From: Salinivenus sp.
GTDB lineage: Bacteria; Bacteroidota; Rhodothermia; Rhodothermales; Salinibacteraceae
Assembly (NCBI GenBank): GCA_018609755.1
Contig: JAHENZ010000144.1
Span: 1-36,948 of the forward strand
DNA: 36,948 bases
Direction: 5' to 3'
Translations under genes and position numbers: made by a program
In this document: positions 2,900 through 19,836 of the stretch, piece by piece
How positions within the stretch are numbered: the first letter of the stretch is position 1
Layout: each line of letters opens with the position of its first letter
The notes under the pieces: model-generated
Database searches by the model: none
What the model saw: the letters and a program-made list of their open reading frames with translations, nothing else
What the model was told of the DNA's origin: nothing

Positions 2900-2913
2900 T
2901 GCTGCGATGAATG

Positions 2914-2944
2914 AGGGACGGACCCGCGAGGGCCGTCCCTTTTT
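2914..2944 (+). terminator. Terminator 2 after rpsU
   Basis: AGGGACGG (2914-2921) pairs with CCGTCCCT (2933-2940). An inner CCC/GGG extension and a GCGA tetraloop close the hairpin, and TTTT follows. This is a stronger intrinsic terminator than the first and acts as a backup. It also argues against starting the downstream sigma factor gene at the in-frame ATG at 2907. Confidence 0.85.
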
Positions 2945-3131
2945 CAGTATGAATGCTCTTCTGGGCTACGAGGAGGAACCTGCGGAATTTCCGGCTGCGT
3001 CCCAACGATGCACCCGAGCGAGGGCTGAGTCCGGTCCCATCGGACCAAGACATAATAATTCGGGCAGGGAGCGCGTTCGTCAAGACGCCATGCCCGGCAC
3101 AAGTTCAGAACACTCACGGAGTGGACCGCGC

Positions 3132-3737
3132 ATGCAACCATCCGACGAGGCACTGGTGACCGCTTATCTGGAGGACGGCGACGAGGAGGCCTTCCGCCGA
3201 CTCGTGGAACGGCACCAGGACCGTATCTTTGGCTACCTGATGGGCATGGTGAAGGATCGGGCGACGGCCAACGACATCTTTCAGGACACTTTCGTCCGCG
3301 TAATCAACGCCATGCAGGACCCCGACGGGGCCTACTCGCACGAGGGAAAGTGGCTGAGCTGGGTCATGAGTATCGCCCGAAACGCGGCGATTGACCACAT
3401 CCGCAAACAGAAGAAGTGGGCGGACATGCCCCACGATCCGGACGACGGGCGGTCCTTTTGGGACACGCTGGAAGATGATTCGCCCTACGCCGATGAGGAG
3501 TTGCACCGCGCCGAGCAGCGGGAGTGGCTCGACGAACACATCGAGCAGCTGGCCCCCGAGCAGCGCGAGGTGCTCCTCCTCCGGCAGGAGACGGACCTCA
3601 CGTTCCGCGAAATTGCCGAACTGCAGGACGTATCTATTAATACGGCCCTCGGTCGCATGCGCTACGCCCTCAAGAACCTTCGCAAGATGATGGAAGACTC
3701 CGACAAGGCCTCCCTTGCGGGCACAAAAGACTCATGA
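3132..3737 (+). CDS. ECF-type RNA polymerase sigma factor
   Basis: Sigma-70 family, ECF-type, about 201 residues. Region 2 spans about residues 10-95: the FRRLVERHQDRIFGYL helix, DIFQDTFVRV (core binding) and SWVMSIARNAAIDHIRKQ (-10 recognition). An acidic linker follows, then region 4 (residues about 135-190) with LAPEQREVLLLRQ, FREIAELQDVSINTALGRMRYALKNLR, which is the -35-binding helix-turn-helix. I prefer the ATG at 3132, where region 2 begins after eight residues. The frame is open back to 2907, but that start lies inside the rpsU terminators and the added sequence has no sigma features; an ATG at 3090 is a lesser alternative. The stop codon overlaps the next gene's ATG by 4 nt, the usual layout for a sigma factor and its cognate anti-sigma factor. 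Confidence 0.9.
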   Translation: MQPSDEALVTAYLEDGDEEAFRRLVERHQDRIFGYLMGMVKDRATANDIFQDTFVRVINAMQDPDGAYSHEGKWLSWVMSIARNAAIDHIRKQKKWADMPHDPDDGRSFWDTLEDDSPYADEELHRAEQREWLDEHIEQLAPEQREVLLLRQETDLTFREIAELQDVSINTALGRMRYALKNLRKMMEDSDKASLAGTKDS

Positions 3738-4363
3738 GAGGCCCACTGATTCGTCGCATTCAGACGACTGCTGCATCCATGGACGATTCGCTACGCCTCA
3801 TTCAGTACCTATACGGCGAAGACGTAGACGACCCTACGTTTGACCGCCGGATCACGGACGACGAGGAGCTTCGGGAGGAATACGAGCGCCTTCAGGAAAC
3901 GAAGGAGGCATTGGACCGTCGCTCGTCGCCGTCGCCCGACGCCGACGTCGTGGATCACGTCGTGGCGCAGGCCGCCGATGCTGCGCAGAGCGGCACCGCC
4001 TCGGACGACCGGCCGGAGCGCGCCTCCGACCGTGCGGCCCGGGCGCCGGACCGGGCGTGGACTCGACGCTTCCGGGCCGTCAGTACGGCCCTGGCCCTGC
4101 TTCTAATCGTGGGCCTCGGCTGGTGGCAACTCCGCTCAGGCGATCCGGCGACGACCCCGAGCGCAGGGGAGACGTCAACCCAGCAGCAATCTGCCTCTGT
4201 TGCGGCGGGCACGGAGGAGGAGCAGAGCGCAGAATCCATGCCCGAGTGGGACGATCGTGACGAAGTGGTGCGGCTTCATCAGCGCATCGAGCAGGTTCGG
4301 TCGCGGAGTCGCACGAACGCCTGGGGCGGCGACCCCCAAACCGTGGACCAGACGAGTCCCTGA
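3734..4363 (+). CDS. Putative one-TM anti-sigma factor
   Basis: Protein of 209 residues with an acidic cytoplasmic N-terminal region (about 1-110), one membrane span (about residues 115-132, VSTALALLLIVGLGWWQL) and an extracytoplasmic tail of about 75 residues rich in Ser, Glu and Gln. The N-in topology is suggested by Arg residues just before the span. No HxxxCxxC zinc anti-sigma motif is present, so it is not a ZAS-type protein by sequence. Its role is inferred from translational coupling (ATGA overlap) with the ECF sigma gene. An internal ATG at 3779 (MDDSLRLIQYLYGED) would give a more typical anti-sigma N-terminus and could be the real start. The next gene follows after 36 nt. Confidence 0.7.
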   Translation: MRGPLIRRIQTTAASMDDSLRLIQYLYGEDVDDPTFDRRITDDEELREEYERLQETKEALDRRSSPSPDADVVDHVVAQAADAAQSGTASDDRPERASDRAARAPDRAWTRRFRAVSTALALLLIVGLGWWQLRSGDPATTPSAGETSTQQQSASVAAGTEEEQSAESMPEWDDRDEVVRLHQRIEQVRSRSRTNAWGGDPQTVDQTSP

Positions 4364-5582: not shown

Positions 5583-6842
5583 ATGTACTGTTCACTCTCT
5601 GCTGTGTGTGATCGAGGACTGCGGGGCCTCGTCGTGCCCTTACTCTTCGGGATTCTCGGCGTTCTCGTGCTGGCCGGACAGCAGCCGGTGCAGGCGACGG
5701 CGTTCGTAGAGGACGTGATGTTTACGGCTCGGTCGGACGGAGAGGGCTACGTCGTTCGCGTTCGCACCCCGGATACGATTCGGGCCTACGGGATGCCGCG
5801 ATCGGTGGGCGAACATCAGATTGAGTGGGTGCTCTACAACACGGCTCTTGCCGACAGCTACCAGAAGAGTGCGCCGAAGGGACCGGTGCAAGAGTACACT
5901 GCGACCGCACAGAGAGGACATCTTATTCTTCGTTTTCGGCTGGATCCAGATCGGCCCGTTACCGCACAGGCGTATCGGGACGGGGCCTCCAACGATCTCC
6001 TTCTCAATCTGGCATACTCCGAAGCCGGACAGCGAACCGTGGCTGATGCGGGGGGCTCGTCACAGTCCTCCAATGTGATTCAGCAAGTGTCGACGGGCGA
6101 AACGAACTCGGATGGGGCGTCGAGGGCCGCACGGGAGCGATGGAAGCTCGACACGGTCGTTATCGACCCGGGGCACGGCGGCAAGGACCCCGGGGCGGTC
6201 GCAAACGGGCTGCACGAGAAAGACATCGTCCTCGGCGTGGCTCACAAGCTTGGGGACTACATTGAGAATCGGCTCGACGTCGATGTCGTCTATACGCGGA
6301 AGGATGACCGATTTATTCCGCTGGAGGAGCGGGGGCACATGGCCAACAAGGCCGGGGCAAAGCTCTTCATTTCTCTCCACGTGAATGCAGCCCGCGCCCA
6401 TGCGGCCGACGGTACAGAGACGTATTTCCTCGGTCCGTCCAAGAGTGAGGCTGCCGAGAAGGTGATGGAGCGTGAGAACAGCGTGATTAAGTACGAGGAA
6501 AACACCGAGAAGTACGAGGATTACGACGAGCAGGCCCTCGTGCGGCAGACGCTCACCCAGAGCGCCTACATGCGCCAGAGCGAGAAACTGGCCTCGCTGG
6601 TCCAGACCCAGTTTGAAGATCGGGTCCAACGCGACAATCGGGGCGTGCACCAGGCCGGCTTCTACGTGCTCTGGAGTGCGTCGATGCCCTCAGTGCTCGT
6701 CGAACTCGGCTTTCTGACCAATCCTCAGGAGGCGCGTTTCCTGAACAGCGATCGAGGCCAGACGCTCCTCGCGAGTGGCGTCTTCCGCGCCGTTCGGGAC
6801 TACAAGCAGGTGTACGAAAAGGGCATCTATCGGAGCGAGTGA
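5583..6842 (+). CDS. N-acetylmuramoyl-L-alanine amidase, exported (Amidase_3)
   Basis: Zinc amidase of 419 residues that cleaves the bond between MurNAc and the stem peptide in the periplasm, for daughter-cell separation or wall remodelling. An N-terminal signal/anchor (about residues 14-32) is followed by a beta-rich, AMIN-like region (about 40-150) and a Ser/Thr linker. The catalytic Amidase_3 domain starts near residue 187. Zinc and catalytic residues are visible: His198 in DPGHGG, Glu212 in LHEKD, His266 in SLHVNA, and Glu374 in VELGFLTN. A charged insertion (about residues 285-325, KVMEREN to EDYDEQ) precedes the final helices, as in AmiA/AmiC-type enzymes where a regulatory helix blocks the site. 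The start ATG has no SD. It stands alone, with long spacers on both sides. Confidence 0.93.
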   Translation: MYCSLSAVCDRGLRGLVVPLLFGILGVLVLAGQQPVQATAFVEDVMFTARSDGEGYVVRVRTPDTIRAYGMPRSVGEHQIEWVLYNTALADSYQKSAPKGPVQEYTATAQRGHLILRFRLDPDRPVTAQAYRDGASNDLLLNLAYSEAGQRTVADAGGSSQSSNVIQQVSTGETNSDGASRAARERWKLDTVVIDPGHGGKDPGAVANGLHEKDIVLGVAHKLGDYIENRLDVDVVYTRKDDRFIPLEERGHMANKAGAKLFISLHVNAARAHAADGTETYFLGPSKSEAAEKVMERENSVIKYEENTEKYEDYDEQALVRQTLTQSAYMRQSEKLASLVQTQFEDRVQRDNRGVHQAGFYVLWSASMPSVLVELGFLTNPQEARFLNSDRGQTLLASGVFRAVRDYKQVYEKGIYRSE

Positions 6843-7158
6843 CCGGCCGACCCTCTGTTGAGTACTGAGCAGGACGCTGTGCTGGTACTCATTGGTTCCA
6901 TGGCGTCCCATGAACTTTGGGGAGCTGTCGGTGTATCTGCATGTCTACAGTGTGCCCTGAGCAGCGGCCAATTCCCGCTCGGGTGAGAGGCGATTTCTGA
7001 AAGCAGTGTCCATCTGCTCGTACCATCTGTGAGCAGGAAGGGACAACCTGGAGCGCCGTTGGATTTCGGCGGGGCTCCCGTAGGGCACCATTTTTGTCTC
7101 TTCTTCGGTGGACATCTATTCAGTCTCCGACACGATCCTCTTCTTGTAGGCCATATCC
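6843..7158. other. Intergenic, no gene seen
   Basis: 316 bases between the amidase and the lipoprotein gene. There is no credible open frame, tRNA or strong hairpin with a T-tract. It probably contains the lipoprotein promoter. Confidence 0.45.
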
Positions 7159-7719
7159 ATGAAAAACGTCCTGCCTCTGCTTCTTTCCGCAATTGTTTTT
7201 CCTCTCCTGCTCGTAGGATGCGACTCGGTGGGAACGGAGGACACAGCCGTCTTTAACGCCGCCTCGCCGATTCCTCCGGTCGTGGAGTACGATTTTCGCT
7301 ACACGTCGGAGGACGTCAATGGACAGCAGGTGGAGGTGGTCTCGAACGCCACCGACAATTTGGGGAGCGTGCTCGATCGAAACGGGTTCAGTCGGGCAGA
7401 CGTGGTGTCCGCGGAAGTGGACAGTGTCGTTCTTCGTCGACAGTCGTCGCCCGCGCTAATTCAGCCAAAGGTATTCGACTATTTGCGGGGGGCGGAGGTA
7501 TACCTCGGAACGGACGCGAGTGGGACACGGATTGCGGATGACGAGTTCGCGACGACGCAGCAGGAGGTCTCCCTGCGTGTGAGTACGGCGGACGTGACGT
7601 CGGACGTGAAGAACGGAAGTACGAGAGGCTTCCTCCGGCTGGATGTCAGTGAAGACGTGCCCGGCGAAGACGTCGTGGACGTGACGGTATACTACAGCAT
7701 TGAGGTGAGTGGAGTGTAG
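7159..7719 (+). CDS. Hypothetical lipoprotein
   Basis: Protein of 186 residues. The N-terminus MKNVLPLLLSAIVFPLLLVGC has a lipobox (LVGC, lipidated Cys21), followed by Asp22, which in some systems signals inner-membrane retention but has unclear meaning in Bacteroidota. The remainder is acidic, with alternating hydrophobic residues typical of a beta-sandwich. No catalytic motif or named domain is recognised. The gene ends two bases before the convergent ridA stop codon, so the two transcripts overlap unless ended bidirectionally. No SD. Function unknown. Confidence 0.75.
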   Translation: MKNVLPLLLSAIVFPLLLVGCDSVGTEDTAVFNAASPIPPVVEYDFRYTSEDVNGQQVEVVSNATDNLGSVLDRNGFSRADVVSAEVDSVVLRRQSSPALIQPKVFDYLRGAEVYLGTDASGTRIADDEFATTQQEVSLRVSTADVTSDVKNGSTRGFLRLDVSEDVPGEDVVDVTVYYSIEVSGV

Positions 7720-7721
7720 CC

Positions 7722-8120
7722 TTACCGAACGGCGATGCAAGAGATCTCCACCCGGGCGTTGCGGGGCAGGGCCTCAACCTGCACGGCCTGACGGGCCGGC
7801 GGCTGCTCGTTAAAGTAGCGCCCGTACACCTCATTGATCTGGGCGTAGTCGTTGACGTCGGTCATCACGACCTCGCAGCGCACCACATTTTCGAAGTTCA
7901 TGCTGGCGGCCTTCAGAATCGCGCCGATATTGTCGAGCACGCGCTCGGTTTCTTCCTCGATTGTCCCGTCGACCATGCTCCCTGTCTCGGGGTCAATTGC
8001 GATCTGGCCGGAGATGTAGAGTTGGTCGCCCACGAGGATGCCCTGGCTGTATGGGCCGATGGCGGCCGGGGCAAGGGGCGTCTTCACAGTGCTGCGGGAC
8101 GTAGAGGTCGAGGTAGACAT
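7722..8120 (-). CDS. ridA: RidA family 2-iminopropanoate/enamine deaminase
   Basis: YjgF/YER057c/UK114 family protein, 132 residues, which hydrolyses reactive enamine/imine intermediates released by PLP enzymes. Recognisable segments are APAAIGPYSQG near the start, GDQLYISGQIAIDP, the ETERVLDNIGAIL helix and the C-terminal signature PPARQAVQVEALPRNARVEISCIAV with the substrate-binding Arg. I chose the ATG at 8120, which places PYSQG about 23 residues in. A Ser/Thr-rich lead (MSTSTSTSRSTVK) is slightly longer than usual. The frame remains open up to 8255 but the extension looks non-coding. It is divergent from mnmA, with a phased direct repeat in the spacer. Confidence 0.95.
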   Translation of the reverse strand: MSTSTSTSRSTVKTPLAPAAIGPYSQGILVGDQLYISGQIAIDPETGSMVDGTIEEETERVLDNIGAILKAASMNFENVVRCEVVMTDVNDYAQINEVYGRYFNEQPPARQAVQVEALPRNARVEISCIAVR

Positions 8121-8512
8121 ATGCGAAGTCGAAGGCACGCGGGGGGACACGACACCCACTAAGATCCTCGTCCCTGGCCCGTGGTACAAGCAAATATTGT
8201 CTGAAGACACGCGAATATTGTCTGAAGGGAGGGCTCCCTTAACATCGGGGGGCACGGCGCTCCATCCGTCTCGGCGTTGCCCCTTTCGTTTTGTCGGAGC
8301 ACGTCCTCCGAACGCTCCGTCTCACGCTTGCATGGAAGAAGCGGCCCCTGCTTGGAACAGCCCTCCGCCTGAGCGGAGGCTCTATGGATCGCCGCCGAAT
8401 TTTTGTGCTGGTCGGGCAGACGGGTTCAGAGGGCGGAACGCCCCGCTGCGAGAGTGTGTTTTTCTCTATCTGTATTCCCAATACCCATTCCGGAAGCGGA
8501 CCTGTATCCACT
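8121..8512. other. Divergent ridA/mnmA intergenic region
   Basis: 392 bases that must hold both promoters. It contains the phased direct repeat at 8193-8227, annotated separately. A hairpin in front of mnmA pairs CCTCCGC (8362-8368) with GCGGAGG (8373-8379) around a CTGA loop and has no T-tract. The mnmA frame is open back to 8291, but that stretch lacks family similarity. Confidence 0.5.
8193..8227. repeat. Two 14-bp direct repeats spaced by two helical turns
   Basis: AATATTGTCTGAAG occurs exactly at 8193-8206 and again at 8214-8227, a 21-bp period. Each copy contains the AATATT palindrome in otherwise GC-rich DNA. Two identical sites on the same helix face, between divergent promoters (73 bp from the ridA ATG), suggest a binding site for a dimer of dimers or tandem activator. 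No regulator is identified. Confidence 0.6.
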
Positions 8513-9664
8513 ATGAGTACGAAGGGACGTGTTCTCGTTGCGATGAGCGGGGGGGTCGACTCCTCTGTTACTGCCGTCTTACTGAAAGAGCAGGGCTACG
8601 ACGTGGTCGGTCTCACCATGAAGACGTGGGATTACTCCACCAGTGGCGGCCGCAGCGACAAAGAGGTGGGCTGCTGCTCGATTGAGTCGATGAACGACGC
8701 CCGGGTGGTTGCCACCAAGCACGGGTTTCCGCACTTCGTGGTCGACCTTCGGGAGGAATTTGGCGACTGGGTGATCGAGCGCTTTACGAACGAGTACCTC
8801 TCGGGCCGCACGCCCAACCCCTGCGTTCTCTGCAACACCCACATCAAATGGGACGCCTTGTTACAGCGGGCCGACGACCTGGACTGTGAGCACATTGCCA
8901 CGGGGCACTACGCCAACGTGCGCTACGACGAGGAACTGGAGCGTTACGTGCTAAGCCGGGGCAAGGACCCCAACAAGGACCAGAGCTATGCCCTCTGGGG
9001 ATTGCCGCAGGAGCATCTGGCCCGGTCCATTTTCCCGCTCGGCGCCTACGAGAAGTCCGAAATCCGCGAGATGGCTGCCGACTTTGGCCTTGACAACGTG
9101 GCCGACAAGCCCGACTCCTACGAAATCTGCTTCATTCCGGACAACGACTACCCGCGCTTTTTGAAGGACCGCGTCGACGGGCTGGAGGAAGAGGTGAGTG
9201 GGGGCAAGTTTGTTACGAGCGACGGCACCGTGGTGGGAGAGCACGACGGCTATCCCTTCTACACGATCGGCCAGCGGCGCGGGCTGGACCTGGCACTCGG
9301 CGAGCGGGTCTACGTGACGGACATCGATCCGGAGACGAATACGATCACGGTAGGGCCGAAGGAAGAACTCATGGAGCAGACCCTCACGGCCCACGAGATC
9401 AACCTCGTGAAGTACCCCGAGATTGAGGAGGAGCGCCCGGCGTGGGGGACCATTCGCTACAACGATGACGGCGCGGGGTGTCTGGCGTGGCAGCCGGACG
9501 AGGATACGCTGAAGGTGGCCTTCGCCGAGCCGAAGCGGGCCATTACGCCGGGGCAGAGCCTCGTGCTCTACGAGGACGACGACGTGCTCGGCGGGGGCTG
9601 GATCCACGAGGTGGGCACAGCCGAGTCGGAGGCCACGGACGAGACGACTGAGGTTCCTGCGTAG
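8513..9664 (+). CDS. mnmA: tRNA-specific 2-thiouridylase
   Basis: MnmA, 383 residues, makes the 2-thio group of s2U34 in tRNA-Lys, -Glu and -Gln. The PP-loop SGGVDSS is at residues 12-18. The catalytic cysteine pair is Cys104 (in NPCVLCN) and Cys206 (in SYEICFIPD). The tRNA-binding and beta-barrel regions follow: TGHYANV, KDQSYALWGL, GQRRGLDLALGERVYV. Length matches the family, with a short acidic C-terminal tail. The ATG at 8513 gives the standard start (MSTKGRVLVAMSGG); upstream in-frame codons are ignored. A CC dipeptide (residues 54-55) in the loop after the PP-motif is also present in other MnmA proteins. The gene is monocistronic. Confidence 0.97.
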   Translation: MSTKGRVLVAMSGGVDSSVTAVLLKEQGYDVVGLTMKTWDYSTSGGRSDKEVGCCSIESMNDARVVATKHGFPHFVVDLREEFGDWVIERFTNEYLSGRTPNPCVLCNTHIKWDALLQRADDLDCEHIATGHYANVRYDEELERYVLSRGKDPNKDQSYALWGLPQEHLARSIFPLGAYEKSEIREMAADFGLDNVADKPDSYEICFIPDNDYPRFLKDRVDGLEEEVSGGKFVTSDGTVVGEHDGYPFYTIGQRRGLDLALGERVYVTDIDPETNTITVGPKEELMEQTLTAHEINLVKYPEIEEERPAWGTIRYNDDGAGCLAWQPDEDTLKVAFAEPKRAITPGQSLVLYEDDDVLGGGWIHEVGTAESEATDETTEVPA

Positions 9665-9740: not shown

Positions 9741-9826
9741 TGGTTCAGGGTACTCTCACGAGCGTGGGGGGAACACTGAAATTCCCCACTCGGTTCAAAT
9801 CCACTAGAGTGCTGCTCCCTGAACTA
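9741..9826 (+). ncRNA. Candidate structured RNA or rtcB leader
   Basis: 86 bases that can close on themselves. The outer stem is TGGTTCAGGG (9741-9750) against CCCTGAACTA (9817-9826), with one G-U pair. An inner stem pairs ACTCT (9752-9756) with AGAGT (9806-9810). A third hairpin pairs GTGGGG (9764-9769) with CCCCAC (9784-9789). A tRNA T-loop-like string, GGTTCAAATCC (9792-9802), sits in the 3' part but lacks a T-stem, so this is not a tRNA. It ends 60 nt before the rtcB ATG. It could be a free small RNA, an mRNA leader element or a fortuitous fold; orientation is assumed from the gene. Confidence 0.35.
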
Positions 9827-9886: not shown

Positions 9887-11323
9887 ATGGAACGTACAGA
9901 CTTGACGCGGATCGACGACTTCACGTGGGAAATTCCGGGGTCGTTCCGAGAGGCGATGCGCGTTCCGGTGCGCATTATTGCAAACGAGGAATTGATAGGA
10001 GACATCATTCGGGGAGAGGCAATAGAGCAGGCCATCCAGACGGCGATGCTGCCCGGACTGGTTGGCCATCTCGTCGTAATGCCTGACGTGTACAGCGGGC
10101 AGGGAGCGCCGGTCGGCATTGTCGCAGTGTCGAAGTGGCCGGTGGGAACGATTGCGCCTGGGGCGATCGGGCACGACATCAATACCGGCGTGCGGCTTCT
10201 GGGGTCGGACATCGACCTTGAGGAGGCGAAAGGGAACTTCGACGCCCTGGCCGACGCGCTCAAGGCCCACATCCCGAGCGGCTCGGACGCGGAGGGGTCC
10301 ATCCAGATGAGCAAGAGCGAGGTCGACCACGTGGCGCAGTCGGGCGCGCAGTGGGCCCTGCGGAAAGACATGGCCCAGCAGGATGATCTGGTGCGAGCCG
10401 AAGAGGGCGGTCGCCTCAACGACGCCGATCCCGGCAAGGTGAGTGAGGCCGCGCGCTCGCTCGGATCTCAGCAACTCGGCACGCTCGGCGGAGGGGAGCA
10501 CTTCATTGAGATCCACAGCGTCGAGGAGGTCTTTGATCGCGCTGCCGCCGTTACGATGGGGCTCAAGGAGGACACCCTCGTGGCCCAGATTCACTGTGGT
10601 TCCCGCGGGTACGGGCGCCAGGTGTGTACCGACTACATCGAGAAGTTCCAAGAGGCCGCCTCCTCGTACGACATCACGCCCCCGAATCCGAATCTTGCCT
10701 GCGTGCCCCTCGACTCCCGGGAGTCGGAGGACTACATGGGGGCCATGAAGGCCGCGGCCAATTACGCCTATGCCAACCGACAGGTACTGGCCCATCGGGT
10801 CCGAGAGGTGTTCGACGACGTGCTGGACGGGGCCGGGCAGCGGTTGAAGACCGTGTACGACGTGGCTCACAACCTTGGGCAGGTCGAGATGCATCAGGTA
10901 GAGGGCAAGCACATGCGATGCTACGTGCACCGGAAGGGGGCGGCGCGTGCCTTCGGCCCGGGGACGCCCGGCATCTCACTTCCGTATCGTGCTCTGGGTC
11001 AGCCGGTACTCGTGCCCGGCAGTATGGGCGAGACCTCCTGGGTTATGCTCGCCACGCGCGAGAGCATGCAGAAGAGCTTCGGCTCCGCGTGCCACGGCGC
11101 GGGGCGAACCATGAGCCGCCACGAGGCCAATCACCATGCCGAGCCGGTGCCGCTCGACGAAGAGCTTGAAGGAAAAGGCGTGCCTGTGCGGGGCGAAAGC
11201 TCGCCGTCCGCGGGCGGCGTAAAAATCAAGGAGAACATCGATGCCGTCGTGGAAACCGTTGCGGGCGCTCGACTTGCCAGCAAGGTGGCGCGGCTCAAGC
11301 CCGTTGCTGTGGTGCATGGGTAG
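9887..11323 (+). CDS. rtcB: RtcB-type RNA-splicing ligase, active-site variant
   Basis: RtcB-family protein of 478 residues, aligning end to end with the archaeal/bacterial 3'-phosphate/5'-OH RNA ligase. Conserved features: Asp97 in GHDIN, His205 in GEHFIEI, His236 in IHCGSRGYG, His328 in DVAHNLG, the HRKGAARAF segment and the guanylated histidine His403 in ACHGAGRTMSR. Deviations: the usual DINCGVR reads DINTGVR, so the Mn-binding Cys becomes Thr100; MPDxHxG reads MPDVYSG (Tyr69); GNHF reads GEHF (Glu204); GSMGTASY reads GSMGETSW; and the C-terminal guanine-contacting Lys in ..AKG is His477. The protein is intact, so this is a diverged paralogue rather than a decaying one. No rtcA, archease or RtcR is adjacent. 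Whether it still ligates is unknown. Confidence 0.9.
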   Translation: MERTDLTRIDDFTWEIPGSFREAMRVPVRIIANEELIGDIIRGEAIEQAIQTAMLPGLVGHLVVMPDVYSGQGAPVGIVAVSKWPVGTIAPGAIGHDINTGVRLLGSDIDLEEAKGNFDALADALKAHIPSGSDAEGSIQMSKSEVDHVAQSGAQWALRKDMAQQDDLVRAEEGGRLNDADPGKVSEAARSLGSQQLGTLGGGEHFIEIHSVEEVFDRAAAVTMGLKEDTLVAQIHCGSRGYGRQVCTDYIEKFQEAASSYDITPPNPNLACVPLDSRESEDYMGAMKAAANYAYANRQVLAHRVREVFDDVLDGAGQRLKTVYDVAHNLGQVEMHQVEGKHMRCYVHRKGAARAFGPGTPGISLPYRALGQPVLVPGSMGETSWVMLATRESMQKSFGSACHGAGRTMSRHEANHHAEPVPLDEELEGKGVPVRGESSPSAGGVKIKENIDAVVETVAGARLASKVARLKPVAVVHG

Positions 11324-11566: not shown

Positions 11567-12304
11567 ATGCCCGACACCGAACAGGGTCCCCATCTCCTCC
11601 TCGTCGAGGACGACAGTGAACTCAGCACGAGCCTCGTCCTTTATCTCGAATCGGAAGGATACGAGGTTACGCTGGCCGAAAACGGCACGGACGCGGAAGA
11701 GGAAGCCACCCGCCTGCCCGGGTATGATCTCATCGTCCTCGACGCCAAGCTTCCGGATCAGAACGGCTTTGAAGTGCTGCGACAGGCGCGGGAGGAAGGC
11801 GTCCGAACCCCCGTCCTCATGCTGACGGGCCTCGGGGACCACGAGCACAAGATGCGCGGCTTTCAGGTGGGCACGGACGACTATCTGACCAAGCCCTTCG
11901 AAACAGAAGAGCTCCTGGCTCGCATCGACGCTCTGCTCCGCCGCGAAGCACAGGTGGAGGAGGAAGGAGGCGTATTTGACGTCGGCGGTCTTCGGGTGGA
12001 TCTCGACAATGACGAGGTGACGCGGGAGGGCGAGCCGGTCAAGCTCACGGACCTTGAGTACAAACTGCTGGCCTACCTCCTCCGGCGCCGCGGCCGCACG
12101 GCGACCCGCGAGCAAATCCTCCGCGACGTGTGGGACTTGCCCTCCGCGGTGGAGACGCGCACGATTGATCGCCACGTAAACGCTCTCCGCGACGTGATGG
12201 ACGGGGAGGGAGAAGACGAGTGGGCCATCCAGAGCGTGTACGGCATCGGGTACAAGCTGGAAGGGGCCGACCGGATCGAGGAGGCCGCGACGAGTACCGT
12301 GTGA
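11567..12304 (+). CDS. OmpR/PhoB-family response regulator
   Basis: Two-component response regulator, 245 residues. The receiver domain (about 8-122) has the acidic pair Asp15/Asp16, phospho-acceptor Asp59 (in LIVLDAKLPDQNG), Thr87 (in LMLTGLG) and Lys109 (in YLTKPF). A winged-helix DNA-binding domain (about 130-235) shows LTDLEYKLLAYLLRRRGRTATREQIL, the recognition-helix region TRTIDRHVNALR, and the terminal hairpin IQSVYGIGYKL. A histidine kinase would be expected next door, but the following gene is convergent LOG and the preceding gene is rtcB 243 nt away. It is therefore an orphan regulator in this window. The target genes cannot be inferred. The short acidic C-terminal tail is typical of this genome. 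Confidence 0.95.
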   Translation: MPDTEQGPHLLLVEDDSELSTSLVLYLESEGYEVTLAENGTDAEEEATRLPGYDLIVLDAKLPDQNGFEVLRQAREEGVRTPVLMLTGLGDHEHKMRGFQVGTDDYLTKPFETEELLARIDALLRREAQVEEEGGVFDVGGLRVDLDNDEVTREGEPVKLTDLEYKLLAYLLRRRGRTATREQILRDVWDLPSAVETRTIDRHVNALRDVMDGEGEDEWAIQSVYGIGYKLEGADRIEEAATSTV

Positions 12305-13007: not shown

Positions 13008-14504
13008 CTACCACGTCCACGTGTCGGGCGGGAGCCATGGCCCCCGAAAGCCTCGGAGCACCGCGTGACGCTGGCGCCGCAGCGACAGTTCCAGGCGCGG
13101 GAGCCAAAACGGAATTGTCCCGAGGCCGACGAGTCCAATCCCCGCTACGCTGCCCAGTACCGCCGGAAGGCTCCACCGGACGCTCATCCAAATCGGGGGT
13201 GCGCAGAGCAGGAAAAAGAACACGAGCCCCCGCACCGGTCCTCCCCCAAACCAGGAGAACCGGCTCTGCTCCGGATTCACCCACCGCCGATTCCATCGCA
13301 CGGCCGCCCACCCCACGAGGGGCACGGCAACCCCTGCGTTGTAGACGGCAAACGCCAGCATCGGAACCGCCAGAAACGGCTCCGCCCACAGCACCACCGG
13401 CAGCGCAGCCAGCGCCGGACCAACGGCGAAGATGAGCAGAACCACGAGAGCTGCCCGCACGAGCTGACGGGACGATCGGTGAAGCAGCAGCCCGTCGAAG
13501 TATGCGCCGTGCCACGCAAACAGAAACTGGCCGTATCCAACAGTCAGAAGCTGGCCGAAGAAGAGCGGGGCCATCACGTACTTGAATGCGGCCAGCCGTT
13601 CTCCTCCCGTCATCATCGCGGCGAAGGCTCCAATCGTGATAACGCCGGCAAAGACCTGCTCTCGGGGCCCTCGGTTTCGGAGAATGAGCTTCGCCTCCAG
13701 CAGCACGAGCGACGAGAGCGAATCCCATCCCCCGGCGCTGAGCATGGGTCCTGATCGTGTCCCCTGCTCCGCCCCGCCCTCAACCCAGTCGTACGTCCAG
13801 CGGCGCAAAGCGGCGGTGGACGCGAGGCCGAGACCGACGGTTGCCGCCGCAAGCACGACCATAGGGAGGACAGCCCCCGCCTGCAGTCCCCCGAAGAGCC
13901 ACGCCGATGCCGCTCGGACGCCTCCGATCCCGAGAATGTCCGCGCCAATCAGGCCGACGATTCCGACAGCCGCTCCGCCGATGACCGCCCACCGTTGTAA
14001 GCGCCACGCCGTGCGCAGTCCCACGTTCGCGACGTGCGTCGCGGCAATCATGAGCATAGCGCCGACGGTCCAGAGCGCCGTTCCCGCCGTCGTCGAGGTT
14101 GGGGCAATCGTGCTAGTGGCTAGGGCTCCCACCCCCACAAGCGGCAGTAGAGTGAGCAGGCTGAGGGCGGAGTGGAGTTGCAGGGCTCGCGCGAGCGGTT
14201 TCCGCCCCACCGGCAGCACGAGGGCCGGACGCCACGACTGCCCCACCGACCGCTGCAGCAGAAACCGGAGAACGACGAGGGCCGCAAAGACACTCAGCAG
14301 ATGCTCATTGAGCACCTCATGAGGCGCCTCCTGAACGCCGTTCTTGGCGAGGGTCTCCGGAAACACGAGGCCGATCCAGCCGACGTACAAGCCGGCGACG
14401 GCCGCGATCAGCGTGTACGCGACCCCTCGCTGGAGCAAGCGCGTCCGTTCGTGGCGCCACTGTTTCTGCCAGTGGAACTGAAGAAGCCTGAGAACCGTCG
14501 CCAT
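13008..14504 (-). CDS. DUF5687-like ABC permease, copy 3
   Basis: Polytopic membrane protein of 498 residues with about 12 hydrophobic segments. It is homologous to the two permeases at 15572-17056 and 17096-18592: same N-terminal plan (LLQFHWQKQWRHE, then a first TM), the same ..FLLQRSVG..W.P.L.LPV.R..LAR.LQ block near residues 80-115, and the mid-protein motif FAWHGAYFDGLL. Length and motifs match the Bacteroidota family I know as DUF5687, treated as ABC-2-type export permeases. Unlike copies 1 and 2 it is separated from the ATPase by two plus-strand genes, so it needs its own promoter or a distal read-through. Its ATPase is presumably the shared one at 18641. Substrate unknown. Confidence 0.8.
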   Translation of the reverse strand: MATVLRLLQFHWQKQWRHERTRLLQRGVAYTLIAAVAGLYVGWIGLVFPETLAKNGVQEAPHEVLNEHLLSVFAALVVLRFLLQRSVGQSWRPALVLPVGRKPLARALQLHSALSLLTLLPLVGVGALATSTIAPTSTTAGTALWTVGAMLMIAATHVANVGLRTAWRLQRWAVIGGAAVGIVGLIGADILGIGGVRAASAWLFGGLQAGAVLPMVVLAAATVGLGLASTAALRRWTYDWVEGGAEQGTRSGPMLSAGGWDSLSSLVLLEAKLILRNRGPREQVFAGVITIGAFAAMMTGGERLAAFKYVMAPLFFGQLLTVGYGQFLFAWHGAYFDGLLLHRSSRQLVRAALVVLLIFAVGPALAALPVVLWAEPFLAVPMLAFAVYNAGVAVPLVGWAAVRWNRRWVNPEQSRFSWFGGGPVRGLVFFFLLCAPPIWMSVRWSLPAVLGSVAGIGLVGLGTIPFWLPRLELSLRRQRHAVLRGFRGPWLPPDTWTW

Positions 14505-14619
14505 CCTTCTTCCTGGATGATCTCAGAGACCGACCGATTAGAAACCTGAATACGAGCGTATCGGTAGGTCGTTCTGCTACATCCATCTGACCGAATCCAG
14601 AAGTCTCATCTAAGCCCCA

Positions 14620-14988
14620 ATGTCTGCTGCCGACGCTGCCCGTACGCACCTCCTCGACAAGCTTCGACGCCACGACCCGGATGTTGCAAAGCAGCTCTCC
14701 GACAATTTGGACGCTTCCCTCCTCAAGCGCCGGCTTGGCGAGCTGCGACGCTGGGCGACCGGGTGGCGGAAGTGGATCTGGATTATCGCGATCGCCGTGG
14801 GGCTCGGGTTTCTGGCGGCCCCGGTTGCGACGGAGAGGATTGGAGAAGGGGGTGCTCTGGGCGGCATGGGGTGGTTGATGGGAATAACGGCCATGGGGAT
14901 TCAGTGGCGTCGGAAGTGTGAGATCTACGAACTGCTGACAATCCTGGCCGATCCGGAATTTGAAGCAGAGACGAACGAGGAGGAATGA
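14620..14988 (+). CDS. Small two-TM protein A
   Basis: Protein of 122 residues: a charged, helical N-terminal half (about 1-50, rich in Asp, Leu, Arg), TM1 about 52-70, a Gly-rich turn, TM2 about 77-94, then WRRKCEIYELLTILAD and an acidic tail. No named domain is recognised. It starts 115 nt from and divergent to copy 3 of the DUF5687-like permeases. It is followed in the same direction by another small two-TM protein with the same plan. ATG start, no SD. Protein-like hydrophobicity, codon use and the paralogous layout support it as a real gene; function is unknown. Confidence 0.65.
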   Translation: MSAADAARTHLLDKLRRHDPDVAKQLSDNLDASLLKRRLGELRRWATGWRKWIWIIAIAVGLGFLAAPVATERIGEGGALGGMGWLMGITAMGIQWRRKCEIYELLTILADPEFEAETNEEE

Positions 14989-15123
14989 GGATCCTGTCGG
15001 AGCTAAGCGAAAACACGCTCCATCAAATCGTTCATCTTGCAGAAAACAAGAATAGCCTGCCCAACTGGTCAGTCACGGAGATAGAGTCTCCCAACCGTTC
15101 TGGACACAAACCCGAAAAGTTCA

Positions 15124-15558
15124 ATGCTCGAACAGCTCTGGTCCCGGTTTGACGATGAGTCCGGGTCATGGGTCTATGATCCGGCCATGCATTTGAGCTA
15201 TCATGACCGGAAGCGAATCACGGATGGGCAGTCGGCCGAGGTAGCAGAGGAAAAGCTCACAACGATCGCCCGGAGCCTTCGAGGACTGAAAACGGCCGCC
15301 GCGGCGGGACTCGTGCTGCTGTTGGGCGGTGCCATTCTGATGGCCCTGTCTGTTCTCGACGTCGTGTCCATTTCGACGCTGGAGGAAATCGTTTCTCCCC
15401 TGTCGATCGCTTTTTCGATGGGAGCCGGGACACTGGCGGGGCTGTGGAGAGGGCTGAGGCTGGAGCGGCAGAAGCTGCTGTGCGAACTGGTGCTGGCGTA
15501 CTCCGAAGAGTCACCGGTCAGTGAGTCCCCGATCCCTGAGAGCGAGCCGGCCCCGTAG
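15124..15558 (+). CDS. Small two-TM protein B
   Basis: Protein of 144 residues with the same architecture as the preceding gene: a charged N-terminal helix (about 25-55), TM1 about 57-79, TM2 about 88-108, then LERQKLLCELVLAYS and an acidic, Pro/Ser-rich tail. The shared pattern of two TMs followed by a basic stretch and an ..ELL..LA.. helix suggests that A and B are distant paralogues. It ends 13 nt before the convergent stop of DUF5687-like copy 2. No named family is recognised. Location inside an ABC export locus suggests an accessory or unrelated insertion; neither can be decided from sequence. Confidence 0.65.
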   Translation: MLEQLWSRFDDESGSWVYDPAMHLSYHDRKRITDGQSAEVAEEKLTTIARSLRGLKTAAAAGLVLLLGGAILMALSVLDVVSISTLEEIVSPLSIAFSMGAGTLAGLWRGLRLERQKLLCELVLAYSEESPVSESPIPESEPAP

Positions 15559-15571
15559 CCCGAGACTGTGT

Positions 15572-17056
15572 TCACAGATCCGTTGCCCGGAAGCCCGCGG
15601 CCAGGGTGTAGCGTTGTCGGTGAAGCAGTCGGCCCAGTCCTCTCATCCAGATCGGGGCGGTGCCCAGTCCGAGCAGTCCGAGTCCCGCGAGTATCCAGAG
15701 CGCCGGCTCGAGCCCAACGCCGAAGAAGAGCGTGAGGGGAAGAGTAATGAGCGCCGCGATTGAGATCATGGCGAGGGACGTGTTGCCCTGGTGGTTAAAA
15801 AACGCCGTTTGGTTGACAGCGAGTGCTGTGCGGTTCCACGTGCCCAGCAGAAGAAACGCAGGGGCGCTGACGCCGAGGTTGTAGAGCAGCAGGGCGGCCA
15901 ACGTGTCCAGAAGACCGGGTGCCTGCCACGCCACGATCGGCAGCACCGTGAGGACCGAACACAGGCAGAGTCCGGCGAACAGAGCGAACTGAGACTGGAT
16001 GAGCGTTCGAGGGATCGGGGGGCGAGCTAAAAGCACGTCGAAGTGGTTCCCGTGCCAGGCAAGTCCGCCAAACTGGAAGTAGGGGGAGGCGAGTGAGGCG
16101 GTTAGCAAAAAGCCAAAAAGCATTTCTAGAAAGGGGTCTCCGCTGAGCTGTGGCCCCATAAAGACGACCAGCCCAATGGTGAGTGGCACGTTCAGGAGGA
16201 GCATCTGGCGGGGACGCTTGTTGCGCAGGATGAGCATGATGCTCAATTGGACGAGGGACGCCGTCTGTCCCTTCAGGCCGAGCTCCCGCAGTCCCGTCAG
16301 CCGCGGCGTCACCCGGGCGCCCGTGCTCGTCTCCTCCCCAACGGCGTAGAGACGGGTCCGCAGGGCCTGATGGGCTGCCCACCCCGCCGCGACGGCACCG
16401 GTCGCCAGTACGATGAGGGGAAGCGGCCGCCCGGTGCTCAGCCCGTCAAAGCACCACGCCGACGCGAGACGGAGACTCCCGAGGCCGAGTGCGTCCAGCC
16501 CGAGGCCCGCAGCGAAAAGCACGGCCGTGCCGAGTACGACGCTCGGATTCCGGTCCCAGGCGACCCGCAGCAGGCTGTTCGCAAACTGGCTGAGGATTAA
16601 AACCAGCAAAACTCCCGTTGCCCAATACGCCATTCCGACCGCAGAGGCCGACGGCCCGACCGTGCTCGCCCCGAGCGCTCCCAGGAGCACGAGGGGCAGC
16701 AGATTGAACAGGCTCAGTGCCGAGGTGACCTGCAGGAGGCGTGTGAGCCGCCCCTTCGGGATCGGCAGGGAGCGGTATGGCCGGACGGCACTGCCCGCCG
16801 ATCGCTGTAGGACAAACCGGCCGACAGTGAGCATAACCATTCCGTGAAGCAGGTACGCATTGAGCAGTCGAAGGGGATCCCGCTCGGGTGTCATCTCCGC
16901 CACGACGTCGGGATAGAACCAGCCGAGGCCGACGAACAACACGCCGAAGTACACGGCGGCGATGGCGAGAAAAATCGTCGTCACGAGGTTGCGGCCCCAG
17001 TTTGTTGAGCGCCACTGCTGGGTCCACTGGTGGCGCAGCGCATCGAGGAGGGTCAT
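15572..17056 (-). CDS. DUF5687-like ABC permease, copy 2
   Basis: Polytopic membrane protein, 494 residues, about 12 hydrophobic segments. It begins MTLLDALRHQWTQQWRST and shares with copy 3 the FVLQRSAGSAVRPYRSLPI block and the motif LAWHGNHFDVLLARPP in the middle. Together with copy 1 (39 nt upstream) and the ATPase it forms a minus-strand operon, which would make a heteromeric exporter or two alternative permeases served by one ATPase. The 13-nt gap to the convergent two-TM gene leaves no room for a private terminator. The DUF5687 assignment is from motif memory; substrate unknown. Confidence 0.8.
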   Translation of the reverse strand: MTLLDALRHQWTQQWRSTNWGRNLVTTIFLAIAAVYFGVLFVGLGWFYPDVVAEMTPERDPLRLLNAYLLHGMVMLTVGRFVLQRSAGSAVRPYRSLPIPKGRLTRLLQVTSALSLFNLLPLVLLGALGASTVGPSASAVGMAYWATGVLLVLILSQFANSLLRVAWDRNPSVVLGTAVLFAAGLGLDALGLGSLRLASAWCFDGLSTGRPLPLIVLATGAVAAGWAAHQALRTRLYAVGEETSTGARVTPRLTGLRELGLKGQTASLVQLSIMLILRNKRPRQMLLLNVPLTIGLVVFMGPQLSGDPFLEMLFGFLLTASLASPYFQFGGLAWHGNHFDVLLARPPIPRTLIQSQFALFAGLCLCSVLTVLPIVAWQAPGLLDTLAALLLYNLGVSAPAFLLLGTWNRTALAVNQTAFFNHQGNTSLAMISIAALITLPLTLFFGVGLEPALWILAGLGLLGLGTAPIWMRGLGRLLHRQRYTLAAGFRATDL

Positions 17057-17095
17057 GGCAACGCGTGAATGCGTTCAGAGAAGAGCGACGATGGC

Positions 17096-18592
17096 TCAAA
17101 TTGGCTCGTTTTCCCGAAAGCTTTTGAGCATTTCGTACCGGTTGCGATCAAGGCCGGAGGCAAGTGGGGTTTGCGTCCAGACGTGAACGAGGAGACCGAC
17201 TAGTCCAAGCCCGCCCATTCCCGCGGACATCCTCCACCAAATTCCGGAGCCATCGGCGATTGTAAATGCGGTCATAGGGAGAAATGCTAGAAGAAGGGCT
17301 GGCAGGGCGTGGAAGTCATTCCTGAACGAGAAGTGTGAGGCCGACAGGTCCACGGGCTTCCGTATATACAAGCCTATCCAGACGAATCCGGGAATGGTAA
17401 TCCCCCACCACCAGACGACACAAGCAGCGAGAAATCCCGCTTTATGAACCGGGAAGGCCGAACTGATGATGAGCAAGAGAACCGTTCCCGGCACTGCACA
17501 GATCCACAGTGACACGAGCTTTGATACCACCAGGTCCTGAAGTCGATGCGGTTCAGTAAAGAGGCCATCGGCATGACTGGAAGAGGCCCCAAATATGATG
17601 GGACCCAGTCCGAGCGAAGGACCTGGAATTCCAGCGGTACAGGCTATAATGAAGAAAAGTGAGTCAGAAGGGGGCTTCGCGAAGAGAATCGAGGCGATTC
17701 CCCAAAGGTACAAGCAGGCTAGTAGGAAAAGAGTATAGAGTGTCATGCCCCGCAGCCGGCGTGTGCGGAGAATTTGTCGCAACTCCAGCGCCACGAGGGG
17801 GCCTGCCGGGAGGTTCTGCGCGACCCAGCGGTAGGCTGCTCGTCCCCACCGTGAGGGCCCGCCGATCCGCCGCGACGTGCGCCGATCCACCTCCAGCCGC
17901 ACCTGCATCGTACGAAACAGCGCCGCGTACGTCGCCCCTGTCGCCCCCGTCGTGACCACGAGCCCAATGGCCGGCGCGCCGAAGACAAACCGGGACGCCG
18001 TTCGAAAAAGATCCGGCCCCGCCAGTGCGTCGACGGCAAAGAGCCCGGCACTCCCGGCCAGCCCGGCGAGCAGCCATCGCGGCCGACGGCCCAGCAGCAG
18101 ATGAAGGAGGTTCGCCCCGTAGCTCGGGAGGACCACTGCCAGCAGGAGGGCGGAAGCGAGCCACGCGGCGGCCTTGACCGGCGACACCGCCGCCACCACC
18201 TCGCCCGCCCACACCGGCCCCACCAGCACGACGGCAAACAGCGTATGGAGCGAGAGCAGCGACAGCGCCGCCTGCCCGTGCAGCAGGCGGGTCCGCGAGA
18301 TCGGCAGTGAGACGTACGGTGCCACGCGCTCCGACGGCGGTGACTGCAGAAAGAAGCGGCTCGCCGTCAGGGCGGGCACCAGGTACAACATCGCGCCGTT
18401 GATGAGGCGCAAGGCGCTGGCGTCCGGGTACAGCTCGCGCAGCACGTCGCCCAGCACGTAGCCGAACAGCCCCAGCGGGAAGAGCAACAAGACCAACAGG
18501 GCCAGCAGCACGATCTGGCCGGCTACGGTGCCGGTGCCCCACGATGGGCAGCTCGTGACGCGGTGCCGGAGCAGGATGCGTAGGGCGCACAT
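17096..18592 (-). CDS. DUF5687-like ABC permease, copy 1
   Basis: Polytopic membrane protein, 498 residues, first permease after the ATPase (48 nt gap). It retains the family block FFLQSPPSERVAPYVSLPISRTRLL but is the most diverged copy. The WHGxxFD motif of copies 2 and 3 is here replaced by ASSSHADGLFTEP. Base composition changes inside the gene: the N-terminal half (about 17760-18592) is near 70% GC while the C-terminal half (17096-about 17740) is near 50%, by counting sample lines. The reading frame is intact across this step, so it looks like a recombined or domain-swapped gene rather than a broken one. Confidence 0.78.
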   Translation of the reverse strand: MCALRILLRHRVTSCPSWGTGTVAGQIVLLALLVLLLFPLGLFGYVLGDVLRELYPDASALRLINGAMLYLVPALTASRFFLQSPPSERVAPYVSLPISRTRLLHGQAALSLLSLHTLFAVVLVGPVWAGEVVAAVSPVKAAAWLASALLLAVVLPSYGANLLHLLLGRRPRWLLAGLAGSAGLFAVDALAGPDLFRTASRFVFGAPAIGLVVTTGATGATYAALFRTMQVRLEVDRRTSRRIGGPSRWGRAAYRWVAQNLPAGPLVALELRQILRTRRLRGMTLYTLFLLACLYLWGIASILFAKPPSDSLFFIIACTAGIPGPSLGLGPIIFGASSSHADGLFTEPHRLQDLVVSKLVSLWICAVPGTVLLLIISSAFPVHKAGFLAACVVWWWGITIPGFVWIGLYIRKPVDLSASHFSFRNDFHALPALLLAFLPMTAFTIADGSGIWWRMSAGMGGLGLVGLLVHVWTQTPLASGLDRNRYEMLKSFRENEPI

Positions 18593-18640
18593 GTCGAGGG
18601 GAGCGACTTGGAAGGACCGACGAGCGCTGACGTTGGTCCA

Positions 18641-19369
18641 CTACGCCTCCGCGGGCTCCGTTTCCTTCGGCCGGATCGTATCGCGGAAGTAGGTGGTGAG
18701 GTCCTCCAGCGTGTCCGGGTCGGTCGGCTCATCGCGCACAATCTCGCCGGCTTCGAGAATCGCAATTCGGTCGCTCACGTCCGTTACGTGGCCGAGGTCG
18801 TGGCTGGAGATGAGCATCGTGGCGTCGCCCCGCCGCTCCTGCAGCAGCTCCTTCAGTTGAATCTGCGAACGGGGATCGAGGCTCGCAAACGGCTCGTCGA
18901 ACACCAGCAGGTCCGGCTCCGGTAGAAGAGCGGCGATCAGGCCGGCCTTGTTCTTGTTGCCGGTGGAGAGATCCCGAATGTACTTCGTGGTGTCCCCAAT
19001 CGGCTCGTCGACGTAGAAGTCCGTAAAAGACTGGAGGCGGTCGTTCACCTCCGCTTCGCTCAGGTCGTAGGTTTGCCCCACGAAGTGCCAGTACTCGTCC
19101 GGCGTCAGGAAGTCGATCAGGAACGACGGGCCGAGGTAGGAGCCGGTGCGCGTCTTCCAGTCGAACGTGTCGGCCACGGCCTCCCCGTCGAGTTGCACGG
19201 TGCCCGCGTCGGCACGAATGAGGTCGAGGACGAGACGGAGGAAGGTCGTTTTGCCCGCTCCGTTGTTGCCGACGAGGCCGAAGGCGGTACCGGCGTCGAT
19301 GGAGAGGTTGGGGAGCGAGAGTTCGAAATTGTCGTAGCGCTTCGTGAGATGATCGGTCGTGAGGTGCAT
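18641..19369 (-). CDS. ABC transporter ATP-binding protein (ABC-2 exporter type)
   Basis: Single-domain ABC ATPase, 242 residues. Walker A is VGNNGAGKTT (33-42), followed by the Q-loop region. The signature reads LSTGNKNKAGL (134-144), a non-LSGGQ variant common in ABC-2 export ATPases. Walker B is LLVFDEP with catalytic Glu159, then the D-loop SLDP and switch His190 (SSHD). The ATG at 19369 gives the normal family start a few residues before the first strand; upstream codons in frame reach 19627 but lack family sequence. It is the first gene of a minus-strand operon with two permeases. It is the only ATPase in the window for three homologous permeases. The C-terminus is acidic and unstructured. 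Confidence 0.93.
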   Translation of the reverse strand: MHLTTDHLTKRYDNFELSLPNLSIDAGTAFGLVGNNGAGKTTFLRLVLDLIRADAGTVQLDGEAVADTFDWKTRTGSYLGPSFLIDFLTPDEYWHFVGQTYDLSEAEVNDRLQSFTDFYVDEPIGDTTKYIRDLSTGNKNKAGLIAALLPEPDLLVFDEPFASLDPRSQIQLKELLQERRGDATMLISSHDLGHVTDVSDRIAILEAGEIVRDEPTDPDTLEDLTTYFRDTIRPKETEPAEA

Positions 19370-19836
19370 GGTGCGAAGGAGGGTTCTGGAGAAACGAATC
19401 CTGTACGGGACAGGGCGATCGCATGTTAATAGCTCCTTCGAGCGATGGAGACTCTGCTGTGTCTGGTTCGCAGGTAAAATGCCGAGAATGTACGGGCGAA
19501 AGGGGGAACGGGAGTGTGGGGGCACTGACAGTCTGCCCTCTGTAAACGGGTGCAAGCAGCCGTCGTCGTTAAGATGCGATTGCCGTACGGGAGGCAAGGA
19601 CCATCCCATGCGAGCATTACAGGCCAAAAATGGCGCTAAAACAGCGCTTCATCAAGCCCCTCTGCCCAGTGTGGATTTTCCAGGTTCGGGCAGCGGCCCT
19701 CGTTCTGAGGTTGAGAACGATGCATGGCATCGACGTAACCATCGTGTTGGTCACGGGACTGGAGGGAACGGAGATTGCCGTCGAGCGTGCAGCATACGTT
19801 GCACCTAAACAAAACTCTACCTAGACATCCTTCGAC
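19370..19836. other. Divergent intergenic region, no gene seen
   Basis: 467 bases between the ABC ATPase and the sugar dehydrogenase, which are divergent, so it must hold both promoters. Open frames crossing it have atypical composition (many Cys, Arg, Trp) and no start context. A short hairpin (GCGCT..AGCGC near 19632-19646) is the only structure noticed. No tRNA. Confidence 0.45.

Follow-up and report, generated by a model that had tools for sequence, protein, structure and literature searches.

The window, the whole stretch of 36,948 nucleotides of Salinivenus DNA analysed here, carries a gene for an RtcB-like protein in which residues that RtcB uses to hold metal and guanine nucleotide are replaced. 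Does this protein still join RNA, and if not, what has the RtcB scaffold been kept for? The first-pass annotation, made from the letters alone, had read it as a diverged paralogue, maintained by selection, that had changed its metal use or its nucleotide specificity or had taken a role other than ligation.

The annotation's starting point, an intact RtcB-like protein of 478 residues, agrees with what was found. The frame runs uninterrupted for 478 codons and a stop, encodes a full-length RtcB, and scores 463.7 bits against the RtcB Pfam family PF01139, where the cut-off is 27. In phmmer, residues 6-478 match the RtcB of P. horikoshii (PhRtcB) with an E-value of 5.6e-121, and the best solved relatives are the structures of that enzyme. 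Residue equivalences between the two proteins were taken from the phmmer alignment and from MAFFT tables, and positions given by number alone (98, 202, 451, 480) are those of PhRtcB. A structure was predicted from an alignment of 57 rows (the window protein, 11 variants and 45 viral RtcBs), with a mean pLDDT of 90.3 and a pTM of 0.92. VIA-align superposed this model on 4dwq, the RtcB-GMP/Mn complex, over 471 residues with 42% identity, a Z of 57.0 and an rmsd of 1.7. The variant is predicted to have the RtcB fold over its whole chain; the sole run of three or more residues with pLDDT below 50 is 439-446, in the C-terminal lid. The features of the locus are collected in Table 1.

Table 1. Features of the RtcB variant locus, in window positions, with the residues found at the same place in variant and canonical rows.
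Feature	Position	Strand	Basis or census
mnmA, tRNA 2-thiouridylase (ORF as listed)	8291..9664	+	lies upstream in many relatives
Promoter-like element, conserved: GGAACACTGAAATTCC-N6-GGTTCAA, -117 to -89 relative to ATG	9770..9798	+	intergenic
rtcB-variant gene, 478 aa, RtcB fold (PF01139)	9887..11323	+	ORF, profile, predicted model
Asp67 codon (PhRtcB Asp65)	10085..10087	+	alignment; kept in variants, Asn in two g9 rows
Tyr69 codon (PhRtcB His67)	10091..10093	+	variants Y16 H2 S2
Asp97 codon (metal ligand Asp95)	10175..10177	+	alignment; kept
Thr100 codon, place of metal-bridging Cys98	10184..10186	+	variants T10 A7 S2 V1; canonical C 49/49
Leu192 codon (PhRtcB Arg190)	10460..10462	+	variants L15 I3 A2; canonical R 48/49
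Glu204 codon, place of triphosphate-contacting Asn202	10496..10498	+	variants E17 Q1 A2; canonical N 49/49
His205 codon (metal ligand His203)	10499..10501	+	alignment; kept
His236 codon (metal ligand His234)	10592..10594	+	alignment; kept
His328 codon (metal ligand His329)	10868..10870	+	alignment; kept
His403 codon (guanylated His404)	11093..11095	+	alignment; kept
C-terminal lid, remodelled (residues 439-449; Lys448 for Tyr451 among them)	11201..11233	+	census, model
His477 codon, place of guanine-contacting Lys480	11315..11317	+	variants H17 S2 R1; canonical K 47/47
OmpR/PhoB-type response regulator	11567..12304	+	downstream neighbour in many relatives

In the available text of the literature, the residues in question are central to RtcB. 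Both Mn ions are held by the active-site Cys, and putting Ala in its place makes the ligase dead in P. aerophilum (Cys100), E. coli (Cys78) and human (Cys122) RtcB (PMC10630183). PMC12263435 calls this Cys invariant and the catalytic centre around it strictly conserved. The PhRtcB mutants N202A and K480A are each inactive alone, and archease rescues K480A but not N202A (PMC3973293). Among the matches listed from the literature on RtcB, the available text held no description of a Cys-less RtcB. Searches of the literature for Salinibacter ruber with RNA ligase, and for RtcB with pseudoenzyme, found nothing; RtcB with Salinibacter gave only a gene table of the BJ1 virus that lists RtcB, and in its available text Salinibacter appears merely in a reference.

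The replaced positions were counted in 20 variant rows and in 49 canonical rows, whose near-duplicates and truncated rows mean that the counts are not independent. The canonical rows are from Bacteroidota, haloarchaea, Streptomyces, Thermomicrobium, Paenibacillus, the BJ1-virus record, Thermus, Pyrococcus and human. An RtcB of another type (L057) and a frame-split variant (L076) were left out, and two rows of the homologues labelled g9 are shown apart. Viral RtcBs were the control: the best 80 of 450 loci for a canonical query were fetched, a choice that leans to canonical forms, and gave 76 alignable proteins after L139, L154, L174 and L184, whose letters were not in the RtcB frame, had been dropped.

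Every replacement that the annotation had named falls where it was placed. Thr100 aligns to the Mn-binding Cys98 of PhRtcB, Tyr69 to His67 in the MPDxHxG motif, Glu204 to Asn202 before the metal-binding His, and His477 to Lys480, the C-terminal Lys that contacts guanine; GETSW stands in place of GTASY. The Thr/Tyr/His combination was found in none of the 49 canonical rows and none of the 76 alignable viral RtcBs, so it is not a common form of active RtcB in this sample. For Thr100 the reading is refined by the relatives: Cys is absent from all 20 variants, and since Thr itself varies among them, the conserved fact is the loss of Cys. Several forms of the Salinibacter group, including that of S. 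altiplanensis (L068), naturally have Ala at position 98. Asn202 is likewise missing from all 20 variants, with Gln in G015 and Ala in the Longimonas rows, and both Cys98 and Asn202 are present in 76/76 of the viral control. A designed substitution of Thr or Glu for Cys is weakened as a candidate by this spread (T/A/S/V at 98, E/Q/A at 202), and the idea that Glu204 replaces Cys as a ligand is weak because Glu204 is not universal.

The guanine site is changed as well. The window protein has Lys448 and His477 in place of Tyr451 and Lys480, and the lid position 451 is Tyr in 48/48 canonical rows versus Lys in 19 variants and Gln in one. Beyond the residues first noticed, the changes at positions conserved in at least 95% of canonical rows are this Lys448 for Tyr451, the loss of Glu445-Glu446 from the lid, Leu192 for Arg190 and Gln332 for Lys333. 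The loss of Arg190 counts for less because that residue is variable among the viral RtcBs. Judged from the aligned residues, the loss of the GTP site in the variant is well supported.

The remaining catalytic residues are in place. The guanylated His403 and the metal ligands Asp97, His205, His236 and His328, rightly listed as kept by the annotation, align to His404, Asp95, His203, His234 and His329, and the partner of the guanylated His, Asp65, is present as Asp67. No full-length variant row has lost His404, Asp95, His203, His234 or His329, and only g9 has lost Asp65 and Arg238. Asp67, Asp97, His205, His236, Arg240, His328, Lys350 and His403 are invariant in the 57-row alignment, and 80 of the 106 columns that are at least 95% conserved in canonical rows are kept in at least 90% of variants. 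The set Asp65, Asp95, His203, His234, His329, His404 and Arg238 is invariant together with the viral RtcBs, which argues for a catalytic or metal-binding role. Two other guanine contacts, Phe204 and Glu206, are also kept in the variants. The Longimonas rows have Thr at Asn330 and one g6 row is without Arg408, losses that would fit a decay of catalysis in some of the clade's members.

Where the variant came from was examined in a quick tree, from which rows shorter than 380 or longer than 560 residues, duplicates and the pre-intein parts of intein-bearing copies were dropped. The variants and the g9 homologues form one clade of 23 rows, the frame-split L076 included, on a long stem of 2.11 changes per column (SH-aLRT 100). 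Its exact sister is unsure, since the tree program gave a warning about the meeting of long branches, of which g9 is one. A recent duplication of the family's canonical RtcB is rejected, since these canonical copies fall together with the order's canonical RtcBs (21 rows, SH-aLRT 100) and the variant clade stands apart. Transfer from haloarchaea is unsupported: the RtcBs of three haloarchaeal plasmids and of the BJ1-virus record are canonical at 98, 202, 451 and 480 and branch elsewhere (the ORF extracted for Haloarcula L108 does not have the N-terminal part in frame).

Gene order is shared widely. MnmA is upstream of the variant in 13 of the 15 loci of a genome contig scan, and 11 of those 13 also keep the order on the downstream side, with a match to the window's response regulator at 72-88% identity. 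In L073 and L076 the sole response-regulator match is one of 41-44% on the opposite strand; L074 and L075 gave no match to either gene. Six further stretches were compared: the genes of both g9 stretches and of G003 lie between MnmA and the response regulator, G015 lacks a match to MnmA but has the response regulator, G023 has MnmA and a weak response-regulator match, and Longimonas has neither. The g9 RtcBs are about 46% identical to the window RtcB, and because MnmA and the response regulator flank both, the g9 protein is taken as the positional homologue of the variant. It differs in its residues (L055, L026; G020, G026): Cys98 is kept, and the changes are Asp65 to Asn, Asn202 to Gly, Arg238 to Ala, Tyr451 to Asp and Lys480 to His. 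Elsewhere in the window, a Rid-family deaminase gene (TIGR00004; 7722-8255, minus strand) lies between an unknown gene and mnmA and was matched in 11 of 15 relatives, at 63-92% identity, and 13008-19627 on the minus strand holds three consecutive DUF5687 genes adjoining an ABC transporter ATPase gene.

The annotation's view that the gene is held under selection is borne out, with the variant or its g9 homologue in 14/14 near-complete family genomes. Compared pairwise with ten relatives, the window gene gives dN/dS values of 0.020-0.118, at a dS of 0.9-1.5 that is near saturation, and the full-length variant matches in other family genomes have no internal stop. One relative, L076 (MAG QS_9_68_14; the same gene as G025:C57), has the variant split in two frames and is a pseudogene or an assembly error. 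The variant is a stable RtcB subfamily of a halophile family, Salinibacter and kin, and is probably old and vertically inherited.

Named hits in this family, as the genome tool draws it, include Salinibacter, Salinivenus and Longimonas; in the NCBI taxonomy Longimonas belongs to Salisaetaceae and the other two to Salinibacteraceae. PF01139 was searched in 27 family genomes, of which 14 are at least 90% complete. Thirteen of these have the variant and one (G026) has the g9 homologue. A canonical RtcB is found besides the variant or g9 in eight of the 14 (G000, G001, G005, G006, G009, G012, G016, G026). The variant is the only RtcB found in the other six (G003, G004, G007, G010, G014, G015), which include S. 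altiplanensis AN15 (G007) and Longimonas halophila KCTC 42399 (G014), and so it is no helper of a canonical partner there. The window's genome is one of the eight with two copies, which supports the annotation's term diverged paralogue there.

The second, canonical rtcB that the annotation had suggested looking for is present in the window's genome (G000), on contig C124 at 6185-9154 of the minus strand (loci L001 and L003), with the Cys, Asn, Tyr and Lys in place and with an intein. The intein, of about 510 codons, sits right before the metal-binding Cys, between GYDIN and C, which makes Cys98 the first residue past it. The RtcB match is split at the same site in G009 and G012 of the family and in G028 and G042 of the order.

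Outside the family the variant was not met in what was searched. In a draw of 395 genomes of the phylum, the variant profile scored at least 944 bits in eight, all of the Salinibacter family, and the next score was 501; 22 newly fetched loci from the next-best profile matches are canonical at 98, 202, 451 and 480. The genome contig scan used two variant-specific peptide patterns, which distant forms would escape, and its 15 loci have titles of Bacteroidetes MAGs, Salinibacter, Salinivenus, Longimonas or Rhodothermaceae. Viral contigs scanned with the variant profile and only two peptide patterns gave no relative, and thus no sign of phage carriage.

Archease (PF01951) follows the canonical copy. 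It is found in 12/12 family genomes with an archease-linked canonical RtcB versus 1/15 without (Fisher p 7.5e-7, shared ancestry uncorrected); the exception, G018, has it near the start of its contig. Two of these 15, G019 and G023, have another distant RtcB match, and the G019 copy (L057) is the RtcB of another type mentioned above, with Cys98 and Asn202 kept and Met at 480. A search of the six near-complete genomes that have only the variant found no archease, and the variant does not show the adjoining or co-occurring archease of an archease-RtcB operon. Archease and canonical RtcB are thus kept or lost as a pair, of which the variant is independent. Because Cys98, Asn202 and Lys480 are all changed and archease was not found where the variant is alone, canonical GTP/Mn ligation by the variant is unlikely. 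The variant probably does something other than ordinary RNA joining.

The gene seems to have its own promoter-like element. Of 22 upstream regions, some of them from genomes represented twice, ten match the element perfectly or with a single mismatch, another six have 3 to 6 mismatches, and the other six (L070, L073, L076, L189, L190 and L194) are poor matches with at least 9. A degenerate form, allowing two mismatches, occurs once per genome in 6/6 genomes and always upstream of the variant, versus one match of a reversed-pattern control across all six. The presence upstream of the variant is by construction, since the pattern was derived from those regions, and the informative part of the search is the absence of other sites. 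In shape the element is reminiscent of ECF-sigma promoters, and an ECF sigma factor may read it. A gene at 2907-3737, upstream of the variant, encodes sigma-70 regions 2 and 4 and is of ECF type by its size. A possible anti-sigma gene follows it (the pair spans 2907-4363), with only 36.8 bits against NF052375, where the cut-off is 100, and in several relatives the sigma and possible anti-sigma pair lies upstream of the mnmA-rtcB region.

What could such a protein do? Our leading explanation, held tentatively and at less than even probability, is an old subfamily in which GTP/Mn2+ ligation was dismantled and the remaining centre was kept, processing phosphate-bearing RNA ends without GTP. By comparison, the variant has lost the metal-bridging Cys, the triphosphate-holding Asn, the guanine-contacting Lys and the lid Tyr and has retained the rest of the catalytic centre. 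On this reading the canonical RtcB-GMP intermediate would not form efficiently, and there would be no ordinary GTP-dependent RNA ligation. Less certainly, three His and one Asp, with Glu204 too in most members, might hold a metal ion without a thiolate, and the Asp65-His404 pair might still attack or activate a phosphate. RNA ends with a 2',3'-cyclic phosphate or a 3'-phosphate could in this way be processed without GTP, the phosphate being opened or removed, perhaps under stress control. Several observations count against this explanation: the kept Phe204 and Glu206 would fit a nucleotide that is still bound, the further losses in Longimonas (Asn330) and in one g6 row (Arg408) would suit a protein without catalysis, and the g9 homologues have kept Cys98 and lost Asp65 and Arg238. 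The more complete version, an RtcB-derived enzyme with new GTP-independent chemistry that combines a thiolate-free metal centre, the former guanylated His as nucleophile, RNA-end processing, a dedicated promoter and service as the sole RtcB in some species, is possible but on balance unlikely.

The alternative that survives best is that the variant is a non-catalytic RtcB, a pseudo-ligase that binds RNA ends or another protein and whose His and Asp residues hold a structural metal ion. A scaffold of this kind could tolerate Thr, Ala, Ser and Val at position 98, a remodelled lid that is the sole stretch below 50 pLDDT, the loss of Asn330 in Longimonas and of Arg408 in one g6 row, and the loss of Asp65 and Arg238 in g9. 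Yet the metal ligands and His404 are kept in all full-length variant rows, and Asp65 and Arg238 in all but g9, which is unexpected for a pure scaffold; we regard this alternative as a minority possibility.

It is doubtful, too, that the variant is still an RNA ligase or nucleotidyl transferase that works with another metal, as one ion or two held by carboxylates, and with a nucleotide other than GTP. The kept His404, Asp65, Phe204 and Glu206 would suit such an enzyme, and losing the Lys can ease ATP use, since PhRtcB K480A with archease makes about twice the wild-type product with ATP in the available text of PMC3973293. The same text reports no rescue of the Asn202 loss by archease, however, and the variant has lost that residue in genomes where archease was not found, along with the thiolate that bridged both metal sites.

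An oxidation-proof RtcB, which has given up its oxidisable Cys in order to keep ordinary ligation going under aerobic, salty conditions in the cell, is improbable. The upstream element, with its presumed resemblance to an ECF-sigma stress promoter, would suit it. The active-site Cys is a known weak point for oxidative inactivation, as the available text of PMC12263435 and PMC10630183 has it, but Asn202, Tyr451, Lys480 and Arg190 have also changed, which oxidation resistance does not require, and eight of the 14 near-complete family genomes keep a canonical copy with its Cys. That the gene is an ordinary pseudogene or an assembly error, as the split frame of L076 might suggest, is practically dismissed by the lack of internal stops in other family genomes, the dN/dS of 0.02-0.12 and the conserved gene order.

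An RtcB variant kept under such strong selection, in some named strains as the only RtcB found, would mean one of two things: the bridging thiolate is dispensable for the chemistry, or the RtcB scaffold serves another function as well.

Four known systems come closest to the variant. With P. horikoshii RtcB (1uc2, 4dwq) the variant shares the predicted whole-chain fold, the guanylated His, Asp65, Asp95 and the three metal-binding His, and it differs at Cys98, Asn202, Tyr451, Lys480 and Arg190 and in its remodelled lid. The family's own archease-linked canonical RtcB (L034-L044; intein form L001) belongs to the same Pfam family and is 42-44% identical to the variant but, unlike it, keeps the canonical residues, comes with archease in 12/12 genomes and forms a separate clade. 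Engineered Cys-to-Ala RtcBs are changed at the same position, whereas the variant is natural, has further changes and is strongly conserved. RtcB2-PrfH ligases are likewise distant bacterial RtcB paralogues; the variant falls outside their family (TIGR03073), with 122.8 against a curated cut-off of 271.8. Overall, the variant is an RtcB by fold and descent and, by three defining residue features, is not a canonical GTP/Mn ligase.
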